Source: Thermoprotei archaeon (lineage in GTDB: Archaea; Thermoproteota; Thermoprotei; Gearchaeales; WAQG01). From it: a stretch of DNA of 64,000 bases. The stretch spans positions 1 through 64,000 of the forward strand of contig JAVZOV010000005.1 in NCBI GenBank assembly GCA_038881895.1. Direction: 5' to 3'. The position numbers and the translations under genes are program-made. Positions 7,154-51,773 of this stretch are shown here, one piece after another (the first letter of the stretch is position 1; every line of letters begins with the position of its first letter). The notes beneath the pieces were generated by a model, which saw only the letters and a program-made list of their open reading frames with translations, searched no databases and was not told where the DNA came from.

Positions 7154-7717
7154 TTAACGTTTGTATGTCACCTCTAATTCTTTAATGTTTGCACGGGCAT
7201 TAGCAATTCTCGCTAGCACAAAAAGCAAGCTTGAGAGTCTATTAAGATAAACTATTAGATAATTATTGATAGGTTCAGTGCTTGCGAGTTGAACAACTTT
7301 TCTTTCAGCTCTTCTACATATTGTTCTAGCTACATGTAAGAGTGCTGCTAGCTGAGTCCCGCTTGGAAGTATAAACCTTGTTATTGGTTTTATTTCACTG
7401 GCGTATTGCTCAATGAGCTTCTCAAGATCTTCGACGTGTTTTTTATCTATTCGTGGTATGTTAAATGATGGTGATATATCGTTCGGTGCTGAGATGTCTG
7501 CTCCCACTATGAAAAGATCTTGTTGCAAGTTTTCCAGTATCCTCGACAAGTCTTCATACGTACAAATACTTCTGGCTAAACCTATGAAAGAGTTTAATTC
7601 ATCAACTGTGCCTGTTGCCTCTATTCTTAGATCATATTTCGGGACACGCCGACCACCTAGAAGACTTGTTTCTCCTTTGTCACCAGTTCTCGTGAAATAT
7701 GGTGTTTTTAAAGACAT
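7154..7717 (-). CDS. Cob(I)alamin adenosyltransferase, PduO type
   Basis: A PduO-family five-helix-bundle protein with the ATP-binding N terminus FTRTGDKGETSLLGG, the GTVDELNSFIGLAR motif and a C-terminal RTICRRAERKVVQLA segment holding the conserved arginines. It transfers the 5'-deoxyadenosyl group of ATP to cob(I)alamin, making adenosylcobalamin, the cofactor of the class II ribonucleotide reductase encoded at the end of the window. ATG at 7717 is preferred to the ATG three codons earlier because the family begins close to this point. Length of 187 residues is normal. Confidence 0.92.
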   Translation of the reverse strand: MSLKTPYFTRTGDKGETSLLGGRRVPKYDLRIEATGTVDELNSFIGLARSICTYEDLSRILENLQQDLFIVGADISAPNDISPSFNIPRIDKKHVEDLEKLIEQYASEIKPITRFILPSGTQLAALLHVARTICRRAERKVVQLASTEPINNYLIVYLNRLSSLLFVLARIANARANIKELEVTYKR

Positions 7718-7808
7718 GATTATCAAGTAGTTCTAATTTTAGGTTAAATAAATCTTTGTTTATCATGCCTATTTTCTTCATGTGAAACTTTTTAGCTTGA
7801 GTTTTAAT

Positions 7809-8079
7809 GTGAACTACCACCAGCTTTCGCAGGTGGCTTCCTGCTTCCACGGACAGACTCGATCTCCACACCCACAGCGGAGGTCTCGGCAGGTGAGACC
7901 GTTTCGGGAATCCCGTGTGGAAGGTGGGTTACGGAGGTCTTGCCCTCAGCAGGCTTCTCTTTCGGCCTGTCCCATGCCTACTAGGTCTGCCAACCAAGCA
8001 GACAATGATAAACACAACGAGAAAAAATATAAGCTTATCGGCCTTCATCCCCACCCCTACGGATGGAGACTCCCCGCCG
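7809..8079 (+). repeat. 271-bp GC-rich inverted-copy element (copy 1 of 2)
   Basis: This segment is nearly identical (four substitutions in 271 positions by eye) to the reverse complement of 34436-34706. It is strongly GC-rich in an AT-rich genome. One end folds as a hairpin (CCACCAGC/GCAGGTGG) and the other carries ATCCCCACCCCTACGGATGG. The internal reading frames show no family features and no sensible ribosome binding site. End hairpins, size and GC bias suggest a non-autonomous, structured-RNA-bearing transposable element of IS200/IS605 style (inference). It ends seven bases from the stop codon of the polynucleotide kinase gene. Confidence 0.85.
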
Positions 8080-8085
8080 ACTGTG

Positions 8086-9390
8086 TTAAAAAGTGCCGGG
8101 TTTTAATCTTCTTATTTCGATTCCTAATTCGTTGAGTACTATATAACCGAAGTAAACATACTTTATCCTATTGAAATCTGATTCGCTAATTTGTCCTTTT
8201 ATAGTTATAATGTTTTTATGTAGATCTAATTTCTCAAGTATGCCTATGTTTAGGAAGTGTTTTTTGGCATCATACAACCCAAGCAATAATCCCTTGATTA
8301 ATTGCGTGGAAATAATCTTTACATCCACAAAATTTGCACCTCTTAATGTTTTTTCGATGCGATCTTGCTGATTTGGAGAGAGAATCTTATCGATCACAAT
8401 TATAGCTGTGGTGTCATCCGAGCCAACATATTCTGGTTCAATGTTTAATATATTTCTTACAATTTCTTTTAAGAAGAAGTTTTCAGGCATTTGCTTAATA
8501 ATTGTGTTCAATAGAATGATATTATCAAGGTTTAACGTTATGCTCTTAGCATTAGATAAGTATTTTGCCATTTTGAACAATCTAAAGTCTCCACGTTCTT
8601 CGCGATTTCTTCTTAAAATGTGTTTAGGAGATTGTAATCGTATCACTTTTATTAAATCCTCATGAGGTTTAACTAAATGTTCAGATTCTTTTTCACGTTG
8701 TAAAACTATTATAACGTTAGGATCTATTGCTTCGACCATATGATATCGTAATGCCATTGCTATGCCACCCTCTGTTAATCCGGATGTGTTGATGATTATG
8801 GCGTTAGCTCCAAGCATTTGTGCTTTTCTAACCATTTTTTGCGAACCAACAACTATCGGTAATAAGTGTCCAACTGGTGATTTATCACCAACAAAATAGG
8901 CATCTACAAGTTTTGTATCCAAAAATGATGGTATTTGTTTCTCAAGCAATGTTAAGCTTATAGTTCCGGGAGGGCCTATATCAGATTGTCCAACATCAGT
9001 ATCAATAACAGCTACCCTAAATCCATTAGCCACTAGCTTATTTGCTAAATATAATGTAAAACCACTCTTGCCAGTGTCCACAGCACCAATAATCATTACA
9101 TTCGGATTAGAAATTTTTAAAACTTCATGAACAGCATTAACCCAATCATCCGGTATTAATTGCTCCTCTACTAATTCATAGGAACCACTCTCTCCTAATA
9201 TAAATATAATCTCAGATTCTGTAAGACCCTTCATAGGAACCTGTCGTCCACCCACTATTGTGAATGAACCACCAGCTTCGATGGACGCGCCAAACACTTC
9301 TACACTTCCTCTTTTTACATCTACTCTTGCAGGACCTCTAATTAGTAGCCAAGATTCTGGAGTTATTTTTTCAGATTTTGTAACCGACAC
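8086..9390 (-). CDS. Polynucleotide 5'-hydroxyl kinase, Grc3/Clp1 family
   Basis: The 434-residue protein has an N-terminal beta-rich domain, then a P-loop GAVDTGKS at about residues 102-109, a VIDTDVGQSDIGPPG motif (Walker B-like DxDxGQ) and the segment VGDKSPVGH. These are diagnostic for the Clp1/Grc3/Nol9 kinases, which phosphorylate the 5'-OH end of RNA or DNA during tRNA, rRNA or RNA-repair processing. The C-terminal 130 residues form a further beta-rich domain seen in archaeal members. The start is GTG at 9390. Single-gene unit, divergent from yjbQ. The GC-rich repeat abuts its 3' end. Confidence 0.88.
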   Translation of the reverse strand: MSVTKSEKITPESWLLIRGPARVDVKRGSVEVFGASIEAGGSFTIVGGRQVPMKGLTESEIIFILGESGSYELVEEQLIPDDWVNAVHEVLKISNPNVMIIGAVDTGKSGFTLYLANKLVANGFRVAVIDTDVGQSDIGPPGTISLTLLEKQIPSFLDTKLVDAYFVGDKSPVGHLLPIVVGSQKMVRKAQMLGANAIIINTSGLTEGGIAMALRYHMVEAIDPNVIIVLQREKESEHLVKPHEDLIKVIRLQSPKHILRRNREERGDFRLFKMAKYLSNAKSITLNLDNIILLNTIIKQMPENFFLKEIVRNILNIEPEYVGSDDTTAIIVIDKILSPNQQDRIEKTLRGANFVDVKIISTQLIKGLLLGLYDAKKHFLNIGILEKLDLHKNIITIKGQISESDFNRIKYVYFGYIVLNELGIEIRRLKPGTF

Positions 9391-34273: not shown

Positions 34274-34435
34274 ACACTTCCTAATTATGTTTATTGATAT
34301 TCCTTAATATTTAAGCATTATTTTGTTTTGCACATTAGTAATGATGAAGTTTAATGAGAGGTATGTAAGATAAGCCTATTTAGTTTGTGAAAATTTAAAA
34401 ATTAAATTCTATTGATAACTATGATTTAACTTTGA

Positions 34436-34706
34436 CGGCGGGGAGTCTCCATCCGTAGGGGTGGGGATGAAGGCCGATAAGCTTATATTTTTTCTCGTTG
34501 TATTTATCATTGTCTGCTTGGTTGGCAGACCTAGTAGGCATGGAACAGGCCGAAAGAGACGCCTGCTGAGGGCAAGACCTCCGTAACCCACCTTCCGCAC
34601 GGGATTCCCGAAACGGTCTCACCTGCCGAGACCTCCGCTGTGGGTGTGGAGATCGAGTCTGTCCGTGGAAGCAGGAAGCCACCTGCGAAAGCTGGTGGTA
34701 GTTCAC
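34436..34706 (-). repeat. 271-bp GC-rich inverted-copy element (copy 2 of 2)
   Basis: This is the reverse complement of 7809-8079, the same length, with four base differences. Starts with CGGCGGGGAGTCTCCATCC and ends with a hairpin-forming CCACCTGCGAAAGCTGGTGG followed by TAGTTCAC. Near identity at a distance of 26 kb points to recent transposition or gene conversion. Flanking sequence is unrelated to that of copy 1, which fixes the boundaries. No transposase is linked. Confidence 0.85.
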
Positions 34707-34920
34707 TCCACAACCTCCATGAAGAGCCCCTATTGAGTGCGGGGACTGCTTTAGAACTTCTCGCTGAGGTAAAACCCGATGATTGAAACTAGGACTGATT
34801 TTGGTTGTGAAGAGTGTGATAATGTTAATAGAAAAATTAATATTGGGATAAAGATTTATTGATTTAATGTTGATGAGGTGAAATTAGAAAAACTTATATT
34901 AGTTGAAAAATCGTTATCTA

Positions 34921-49923: not shown

Positions 49924-51135
49924 CTAAGTATGGATATGTATGGAATCCATACTTAGTCCTTGAGCCTCAACGCTCTCGTCCTCCTCTGGGTTCATTGGAG
50001 GGCTCATCGAGCTCTGCTCCCTTCGGGGTGAACCCATGAATCCCCACATCCTAAGGAACGTTTTCCAAACGTTTATTGATGCATTCTTCTGCCTATCGAT
50101 TATAAAACCGCATTTTGGGCACTCGAAGACTGCTCCCCTTAGGTCTTTATTATAATACCCGCATCTGGAGCAGGTCTTAGATGTACCATAAGCCTTAACA
50201 AATACTGTTGTGTGTCCATTCCATGCAGACTTATATTCTACGTACTTTTGGAGCTTAATGTAGTCGTGTTTGCTATTCTGCCTATTCATGCTCCTACTCT
50301 TTGTCCTAGCTATTCTTTCCTTGAAATTTTTTAAATCCTCGAACACATTTGTCCTATCCGATAACTGTTTTGCAAGTTTATGTAATGCATCGTTAACCCT
50401 GTTTCTCTCTCTTGAACCGTACTTCTTCAGGAGCTTCTTCCTCGTTTTTCCGGGTAGCTTCTGGATAATCCTTCTCTTCAGCTCGTACGTTCTATGAATT
50501 GTGTAGATTTCCTTCAGGCTTATCGAGTAATGCTTTTCACCATTAAAACCGTCCAAAGTTAAGAGGTTTACGTCCCATGCTATTGGGTCTTTAATCTTTA
50601 GCTCCACCTCTTTTCTAACAGTAACTGTAAGCTTGTCCTGTTTAAGTATGAGTTCGCCAAATTCTAAGCCATTTATTTTATCCCAACACCACGTCTTTCT
50701 CAAATCTATAGTTATACTCTCTTCGTAAGGTCTTACTGAAATCCTGAGAATTCCATCCCTGTAACTGTAAAGAGTTTCCTTAACTCTAACGAACTTCCTC
50801 CTCAGTTCAGGCCTACTTCTTCCAGCCCGCCCACGAAGGTACCTCTTCCTCCACGATTCAAGCACGGAATAAGCCTGTTTTATCGCGGAGTCCACGTAAT
50901 GCTTAGAGTAAGCCCACCCCTCAAGATACTTATCTCTAAGCTCTTTTCTAAAAGTCTTATCTTTCCTCAGAAATGGTATAAGCCTCTTCCCATTCCTATT
51001 CCATGCAATGTTCCTCCATAAGTCATCCAGGATAGCGTTTAAGATGCGCATGTAATCCTCTATGAGCTCGTTCACCTCAAGGTTATGCGGTATCGAGTAC
51101 GCTTTAACCAACAAGCTTCCTGACACCTTCAACAA
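49924..51135 (-). CDS. tnpB: TnpB RNA-guided nuclease of IS607 element
   Basis: The 403-residue TnpB appears intact. RuvC-I Asp is in [13 protein letters not shown], RuvC-II Glu in [12 protein letters not shown], and RuvC-III Asp in [16 protein letters not shown]; a zinc ribbon ([22 protein letters not shown] in two CxxC pairs) lies near residues 330-352. TnpB cleaves DNA guided by omega-RNA transcribed from the tnpB 3' end and the element's right end. Here the final codons overlap the hairpin that closes the element. The start is TTG at 51135 or the GTG three codons later; overlaps tnpA by 32 bases. Confidence 0.92.
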
Positions 51136-51712
51136 CCTCCCTATACTTACGGCTCCTCATTCCATAGAGCCTTCCAGCGAAATGAGCAACTATGGTGATC
51201 AAGTCCTCCACAAGCTCTTCATGAGGTGCCTTCCCTTCATGGTTTATCACTTCTATTTCTGTTCCGAAAACTATGAACATTTTCTTTAAAGTTTCAAAAC
51301 CAAATCTTGTGAGCCTGTCTTCGTAAGCGATTATCAGCTTGGATATTTTCCTTTCTGAAACCATATTTAAGAGTTTCAGGAAGTTTTTTCTGTTTTCGTT
51401 GAGTCCAGAACCAACATCCGTTAGGATTTGAATTTCACCGTAACCTTTCTCTTTAGCGTAGCTTGAAATGAGCTGTTTCTGTCTTTCAAGGTCATCCTTT
51501 TGTGTTGAAGATGAAACCCTTGCATACCCTACAATAATTCTTTCCTCTCTTAAACCAAGGATTCGTTTTATTTCGCTCTCGGGAATCCTCCTACGTCCTC
51601 CAAGTGTTCTAACGCACCTAATCTTGCCCTGCCTATCCCATTGCTGAATGGTCCAGGTGGTGACTCCAAGAAGCTTCTTCGCCTCCTTGATCGTATAGAG
51701 CTTTTCGGGCAT
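51104..51712 (-). CDS. tnpA: IS607-type serine recombinase TnpA
   Basis: The 202-residue enzyme has the MerR-like HTH ([35 protein letters not shown]) and a serine-recombinase domain with catalytic Ser in [18 protein letters not shown], plus [20 protein letters not shown] at 51712 is chosen, as in the sister copy at 735-1361. Close relative of that copy but with many differences, so the two are not recent duplicates of each other. Overlaps tnpB downstream. Confidence 0.93.
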
Positions 51713-51773
51713 CAATATTCTTCTATACCCACCAATATTTAAACATATCTATTTTGAAACTGCTGAAAGAAGC

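Follow-up and report, generated by a model that had tools for sequence, protein, structure and literature searches.

A transposase-free IS605-type element with a predicted TnpB-type guide-RNA scaffold in a Thermoprotei archaeon and its relatives

Results

The element and its copies

The window analyzed here, a stretch of 64,000 nucleotides from a Thermoprotei archaeon (contig JAVZOV010000005.1), contains two inverted copies of a short repeat. The original prediction described a twin inverted repeat with 98.5% identity and four differences, and this description is borne out: positions 7809–8079 and the reverse complement of 34436–34706 match at 267 of 271 positions. It also described sharp ends in unrelated flanks. 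The flanks are indeed unrelated, but the inner edge was called 6 bp short because the 6-bp block at this edge comes in different forms. The true extents are 7809–8085 on the minus strand (copy 1, left end at 8085 and right end at 7809) and 34430–34706 on the plus strand (copy 2, inverted relative to copy 1), 277 bp each, because in all 14 aligned copies TTTAA adjoins the left end, and TTCAC followed by a differing flank forms the right end. The block after TTTAA reads CTTTGA in most of the 14 copies, CACAGT in four and CTCTGA in one. Between CTTTGA and CACAGT several bases next to the cleavage site differ at once, which is hard to explain by single substitutions.

The element is not restricted to the two copies that had been noticed. 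In the assembly to which the window belongs (1.75 Mb in 7 contigs, 97% complete), we found 14 full copies with 96–100% identity and five partial matches. Each full copy has an E value below 1e-123, which excludes chance. The flanks beyond TTCAC differ in all 14 copies, so that the proposed recent mobility stands: there are 14 near-identical copies in 14 different surroundings. When the flanks are joined, only one of the 14 insertion points (L007) falls within an ORF of at least 80 amino acids, namely one of 84 amino acids; the other 13 do not. The joined flanks of the 14 copies gave no spanning match, that is, no empty site, among the retrieved loci that were searched. A plain-DNA search of the element against plasmids and phages gave no match, and among 61 relatives the only match was the genome itself.

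Read in the sense of the element, which at copy 1 is opposite to the forward strand, the order is TTTAA, the 6-base block, a C/G-rich left end and the right end GTAGTTCAC. At copy 1, TTTAA occupies 8086–8090 (minus strand), where it abuts the left end and overlaps the stop codon of a CLP1-like gene (8086–9390, Pfam). It is the insertion target and, by analogy with IS605 elements of Sulfolobus, the predicted TAM of TnpB. The C-rich side that had been noticed corresponds to the left-end stem (about 8045–8079), and the hairpin noticed at the other edge corresponds to the right-end terminal hairpin (7816–7837, minus strand). A TATA-like box, AAGCTTATAT, lies in the left end of all 14 copies (8027–8036 on the minus strand in copy 1) and points into the element, toward a guide-RNA-like scaffold of about 160 nt (7809–7969, minus strand) that ends in TTCAC at 7813–7809. 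This box may act as a promoter. Within the scaffold lies a conserved branched arm (7856–7939, minus strand), which is found in standalone elements only and is absent from the tnpB-linked right ends that we examined. By analogy with TnpB7, the host flank adjoining TTCAC (7789–7808, minus strand) is the predicted guide of copy 1. The corresponding features of copy 2, all on the plus strand, are the TTTAA target and predicted TAM (34425–34429), the TATA-like box (34479–34488), the guide-RNA-like scaffold (34546–34706) and the predicted guide (34707–34726). As had been stated before, there is no transposase gene inside the element.

The position of all 14 copies directly 3′ of TTTAA, without target duplication, follows the insertion rule of IS200/IS605-type elements, and the same holds for the plasmid pair pARN3 and pARN4 described below. 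Hairpins lie near both ends, the right one identified by covariation and the left stem read from the sequence. Terminal inverted repeats and target duplications were found in none of the 14 copies, which rules out a classical DDE-type MITE.

A conserved structured RNA

Toward the right end, roughly 160 nt can be aligned among the 14 copies, a diverged copy in the same genome (L021, see below) and two further genomes, G101 and G205, which were found with a translated tail (43 and 12 match rows, respectively). For the alignment (A3) we used 16 of the 18 G101 loci and eight of the 12 G205 loci; the remaining loci, as well as both loci of a fourth genome (G104), have no clear right-end or core match and were left out. 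The resulting consensus structure has 40 pairs in 39 sequences (37 distinct), and 98.6% of the cells are paired, compared to 38–43% in controls in which the structure was slid along the alignment. Double changes occur at 13 of the 40 pairs, and 90 cells carry them. On four of five covariation measures, none of 500 shuffles was as good; the fifth measure, further pair types, was not above the shuffles (120 of 500). Hence, the structured RNA proposed in the original prediction is supported by compensatory changes across three genomes. Most of the compensatory change is found in the terminal hairpin (helix 7), the sequence of which varies between genomes while the pairing is kept. At the curated thresholds of Rfam, the only match in the window is a tRNA elsewhere, a lax search of 7700–8200 gave only mir-1299 (E 3.9), and 16 related loci gave one tRNA. 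The element and its RNA are well supported.

The arm is 92.8% identical between the genome of the window (G000) and G101, compared to 81.9% for tnpB DNA; between G000 and G205 the values are 82.3% and 74.7%. With 69.7% (G000–G101) and 61.1% (G000–G205), the terminal hairpin varies more. Y1 transposases recognize subterminal DNA hairpins, and since there are hairpins at both ends of the element, one could argue that the conserved hairpins are single-stranded DNA signals for such a transposase and not RNA. We consider this very improbable: the conserved structure lies inside the element, whereas its ends vary, and compared with shuffled sequences the presumed transcribed strand folds better (z −2.33, 3 of 200 shuffles as good) and the other strand less so (z −1.09, 21 of 200).

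The element does not code for protein either. It contains a tnpB-like tail frame of 57 amino acids, which is open in nine of the 14 copies, as would be expected if the element encoded a small peptide. However, the frame is broken by frameshifts in the other five copies, and there is an in-frame stop in all of the 18 G101 matches listed. Differences at codon positions 1, 2 and 3 number 6, 8 and 2 between G000 and G101, and 11, 18 and 8 between G000 and G205. Third positions (2 of 16 and 8 of 37 differences, respectively) are therefore not the ones that change most. The broken frames and the spread over codon positions indicate that the tail frame is not coding, and we reject a peptide, to which we give practically no credence. 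Protein coding, which would have spoken against an RNA-bearing element, is not what the internal frames reveal.

Relation to TnpB and to transposases

Exact scans of the genome for the two end motifs lead beyond the 14 copies. The right-end motif occurs at 17 sites, which are the 14 copies and three other loci; of the 18 sites with the left-end motif, 14 are the copies, two more are noteworthy and the last two appear to be chance matches. The first of the loci beyond the 14 copies (L020, C1:439212–440552) is an intact tnpB-only element and the second (L022, C1:136290) is its truncated sibling. The third (L021, C2:406251–407900) is a diverged copy of the element with about 74% identity, which is split by an IS607-like element.

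The tnpB-only element L020 and the window element are 91% identical over 53 bp at the left end and 86% identical over 43 bp at the right end. In G101, the left end and the terminal hairpin are identical between some copies of the element and a tnpB element. In G205 the likeness concerns the right end only, where one copy has the very terminal hairpin and GCTCAC end of a tnpB element. Hence, each of the three genomes has a tnpB-only element of L020 type with ends similar to those of our element. The core and the terminal hairpin match tnpB-linked right ends, but the branched arm does not. Because the right end of the L020 tnpB element has no branched arm, we reject the idea that the element is a simple recent deletion of the tnpB element at C1:439 kb. 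As for an autonomous relative, our search of the genome found this tnpB-only element with near-identical ends but no Y1 element with matching ends.

Another candidate parent was IS607-like family B, since at C2:406–408 kb element-like ends surround a tnpB gene of 384 amino acids and a truncated HTH gene. Family B elements, however, end at GAACCC (flank alignment of 26 copies), and so this locus is an old copy of the element with an IS607-like insertion, and we reject family B as the parent. The genome has one Y1 transposase gene (C6:2567; the assembly is 97% complete), but its own element has different ends, and as the mover of our element it is not supported.

The three genomes with strong tail matches all encode an L020-type TnpB that is 70% or more identical along most of the protein, and only 7 of 349 genomes encode an L020-type TnpB at that level. 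This co-occurrence is suggestive, with genome samples and relatedness uncontrolled. Several genomes, among them G385, G115 and G252, carry the arm-bearing RNA yet are absent from the L020-type TnpB matches at E ≤ 1e-60, although the samples for the RNA and for TnpB may differ (398 and 349 genomes, respectively). If the guide model holds, other TnpBs must serve in arm-RNA genomes that have no close L020-type TnpB.

The likeness to tnpB-linked right ends could also have a different meaning. The RNA could equally inhibit TnpB: it might bind the resident TnpB through the common core and block or dilute the guide RNA that belongs to this TnpB, which would spare the element from cutting. Such a decoy role is the main rival to the guide model. 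It fits with the core and terminal hairpin that are common to tnpB-linked right ends, and with an extra arm that is present only in standalone copies. However, the TTCAC terminus and an open-ended flank are kept as they are in a working guide RNA, and a decoy could do without the exact junction with the flank, although transposition could not. We therefore consider a decoy unlikely. We favor the guide model, but since the branched arm was not seen in the tnpB-linked right ends that we examined, binding by TnpB is not assured.

The L020 TnpB, the candidate partner in this genome, has no zinc ribbon. It belongs to a lineage (L020:1701–2849, C1:439.2–440.3 kb, and its relatives L066–L074 with 72–84% identity) in which the four-cysteine zinc ribbon is gone and the three apparent RuvC acidic positions, as read by eye, are kept. 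Members are found in MAGs labelled Nitrososphaeria, Brockarchaeota, Bathyarchaeota, Terraquivivens, Methanomethylicales and Sigynarchaeota. Independent short derivatives of zinc-ribbon-less tnpB elements exist at L091–L094 (Terraquivivens) and L090/L437, where tnpB has large internal deletions, its start is fused to its tail, and there are several copies.

More generally, the genome of the window is very rich in tnpB, with 63 PF07282 matches in 1.75 Mb next to a single Y1 gene, and many of the copies belong to two IS607-type families. Positions 49924–51715 of the window hold an apparently complete IS607-type element with a serine transposase (203 amino acids) and a TnpB (403 amino acids). In sibling copies elsewhere, what is left of the transposase is its HTH part (63 amino acids matched within an ORF of 92 amino acids), as though a deletion had removed the catalytic part. 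A second transposase-free family has three near-identical copies (L344, C2:93.6 kb; L345, C5:102.9 kb; L346, C3:124.4 kb) with TTTAT before the element, TTCAC at its end and a retained tnpB-like tail. TTTAT has been reported before solo-tnpB elements in Sulfolobus islandicus (PMC10640517).

A standalone lineage across the phylum

A covariance model of the RNA (R2) matched 28 of 398 genomes of the phylum at E ≤ 1e-6. The model was built from G000, G101 and G205, which match by construction. At most seven candidates per genome were scored under strict filters, and copy numbers are lower bounds. We examined 30 loci, which fall into two groups: 18 match over at least 150 nt and contain the arm, and 12 match over 81–123 nt and do not. 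With eight TnpB queries at E ≤ 1e-5, no tnpB-like sequence was detected within about 1.5 kb on either side of the 18 arm-bearing loci, and 11 of the 12 loci without the arm overlap a tnpB gene or its remnant. This grouping also covers loci that have no match to the right-end motif. Thirteen of the 18 arm-bearing loci come from genomes that were not used to build the model. A smaller model (R1) matched 4 of 81 genomes of the class. Judging from these matches, many archaea that are only distantly related to each other have relatives of the element that share this conserved RNA.

An ordinary PATE or MITE, consisting of transposition ends and a leftover 3′ end of tnpB without any RNA function, would have a layout that is already known. 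PATEs are transposase-free derivatives of IS605 (PMC3119063, PMC7290912), and one from Halanaerobium, of about 271 nt, consists of a left end, the last 58 nt of tnpB and a right end (PMC7290912). The tnpB-like tail, still open in nine of the 14 copies, would fit this view. In contrast, the internal arm is the part best conserved across genomes and the terminal hairpin differs, there are compensatory changes, and a standalone lineage spans the phylum; a leftover would decay. This makes the explanation quite improbable to us.

One of the matched loci (L432) has 323 bp between TTTAA and TTCAC and leads to Sulfolobus. Its DNA matches pARN4 and pHVE14, two plasmids of S. islandicus, with 89.8% identity and Acidianus tailed spindle virus with 89.1%, and the R2 RNA is present in these stretches of all three (90–93 bits; 90.3 bits for pARN4 and 92.9 bits for pHVE14). 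The two plasmids have the element at a length of 321 bp and in unrelated flanks, each time with TTTAA before it and TTCAC at its end. The joined flanks of pARN4 match pARN3 over their whole length (97.7%), and also pYN01 and Saccharolobus shibatae plasmids; those of pHVE14 matched only pHVE14 itself. The empty site in pARN3 reads ...GGTTTTAATGAAGTTAAG..., which is pARN4 minus 321 bp with nothing duplicated. The first 24 nt past the element in pARN4 are exactly what follows TTTAA in pARN3. Thus, TTTAA and these 24 nt in pARN3 would be the very target that the guide model predicts.

A few viral contigs carry related arrangements. At two loci (L241, about 1950–2221, and L304) the TTCAC right-end motif is immediately preceded by two CRISPR-repeat-like units, each about 37 nt long, and at three others (L249, L274 and L303) there are short elements with IS605-like ends and no evident tnpB frame between them.

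Discussion

The explanation that we prefer, with somewhat more confidence than doubt, is that the repeats are a transposase-free IS605-type element (similar to PATEs and SMN elements) that carries a portable promoter and a TnpB-type guide-RNA scaffold and takes its guide from the site where it lands. The copies, their boundaries, the insertion logic, the RNA structure, the absence of tnpB and the ends held in common with a tnpB element can all be read directly from the genomes. That the RNA guides TnpB in trans is something we infer.

The element would work as follows. The left end provides a hairpin and a TATA box of archaeal type, and it is followed by a structured RNA of about 160 nt, which would end exactly at TTCAC. 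A Y1-type transposase would move the element in trans and insert it directly 3′ of TTTAA, without duplicating the target. Transcription would start in the left end and run through the RNA into the flank, so that the host nucleotides directly next to the element would serve as the guide. The RNA would be loaded by a TnpB of the host genome, here most likely that of the tnpB element with the same ends (C1:439.2–440.5 kb). This TnpB would use the RNA to find and cut DNA that lacks the element, recognized by TTTAA and the guide sequence, and the empty site would then be repaired from the occupied one.

Several parts of this scheme have precedents. In S. islandicus, TTTAA precedes the left end of those IS605 elements that contain both tnpA and tnpB (PMC10640517); the right end is TTCAC and TTTAA works as the TAM (PMC11043419). 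For TnpB7, the sequence immediately after UUCAC is the guide (PMC11043419). TnpB is an RNA-guided nuclease that depends on the TAM for cutting and processes RNA into omega RNA (PMC11043419, PMC10278001). The window RNA resembles the S. islandicus omega RNA (reRNA) in its TTTAA target, its TTCAC right end, and a scaffold that is followed by variable sequence (PMC11043419, PMC10640517), here 14 distinct flanks in 14 copies. Known reRNAs, however, overlap tnpB, whereas the window RNA stands away from any tnpB gene, behind a TATA-like box of its own, and includes an additional branched arm. Since none of the 18 arm-bearing loci has a tnpB within the examined flanks of about 1.5 kb, we do not file the RNA as a tnpB-linked omega RNA but only as one that would work like it.

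The original prediction called the element a good candidate for an undescribed one and stated that membership in a described IS200/IS605 MITE family would count against it. This holds in part. The RNA matches no Rfam family at the curated thresholds, but the insertion site, the ends and the end hairpins are of the IS200/IS605 type, and PATEs and SMN1 are known. PATEs share with the element the IS605 ends, the near-terminal palindromes and the lack of both a transposase and a target duplication, and the Halanaerobium PATE keeps the 3′ end of tnpB together with the right end (PMC7290912). The element differs from PATEs in that distant genera share its conserved internal RNA, which occurs separately from tnpB; the passages on PATEs in these two papers propose no function for an RNA (PMC3119063, PMC7290912). 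The two SMN elements ("Sulfolobus mobile non-inverted repeat") are similarly free of transposase genes and inverted repeats and are attributed to IS200/IS605-type transposases. SMN1 is a 320-bp element of S. islandicus that depends on the transposase of ISC1733 (PMC3718332), and SMN2, in pMGB1 and SMV1, is thought to be moved by the transposase of the IS200 element of pMGB1 (PMC3839810). The passages on SMN elements in these papers describe no RNA or guide role for them (PMC3718332, PMC3839810). By size and host, the 321-bp element of pARN4 is probably SMN1.

PATEs, SMN elements and TnpB guide RNAs are treated separately in the portions of the literature available to us, and we found no paper among these that joins them. 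By term counts, a 2024 review of prokaryotic MITEs makes no mention of IS200, IS605 or TnpB. We regard the element as a variant of known IS605 derivatives; what appears to be new is joining SMN elements and PATEs with a TnpB-type guide RNA. Altae-Tran 2021 reportedly describes standalone omega RNAs of IscB in Ktedonobacter racemifer, and Meers 2023, a study of Geobacillus TnpB, is said to include PATEs. In these cases, as in ours, a guide RNA or IS605 ends occur without a nuclease gene, although the former concerns IscB rather than TnpB. Priority is therefore uncertain. To our knowledge, neither study describes a phylum-wide archaeal family.

A more far-reaching reading, for which we see an almost even chance, is that the SMN- and PATE-type elements of this phylum are long-lived mobile guide-RNA genes. 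They would be RNA-only parasites that exploit the TnpBs encoded by unrelated resident elements, both to spread to their sites and to hold them through the cutting of empty alleles, gaining a new guide with each insertion, and the branched arm would be an adaptation to acting in trans. If this is true, then RNA-only parasites are to TnpB-guided homing what MITEs are to transposases, and there would be a mechanism for a family that earlier work on Sulfolobus knew as inert repeats. The arm would show how a TnpB guide scaffold adapts to act away from its own gene. S. islandicus is a genetic model in which TnpB editing works, and it offers both a relative of the element on pARN4 and an empty-site partner in pARN3.
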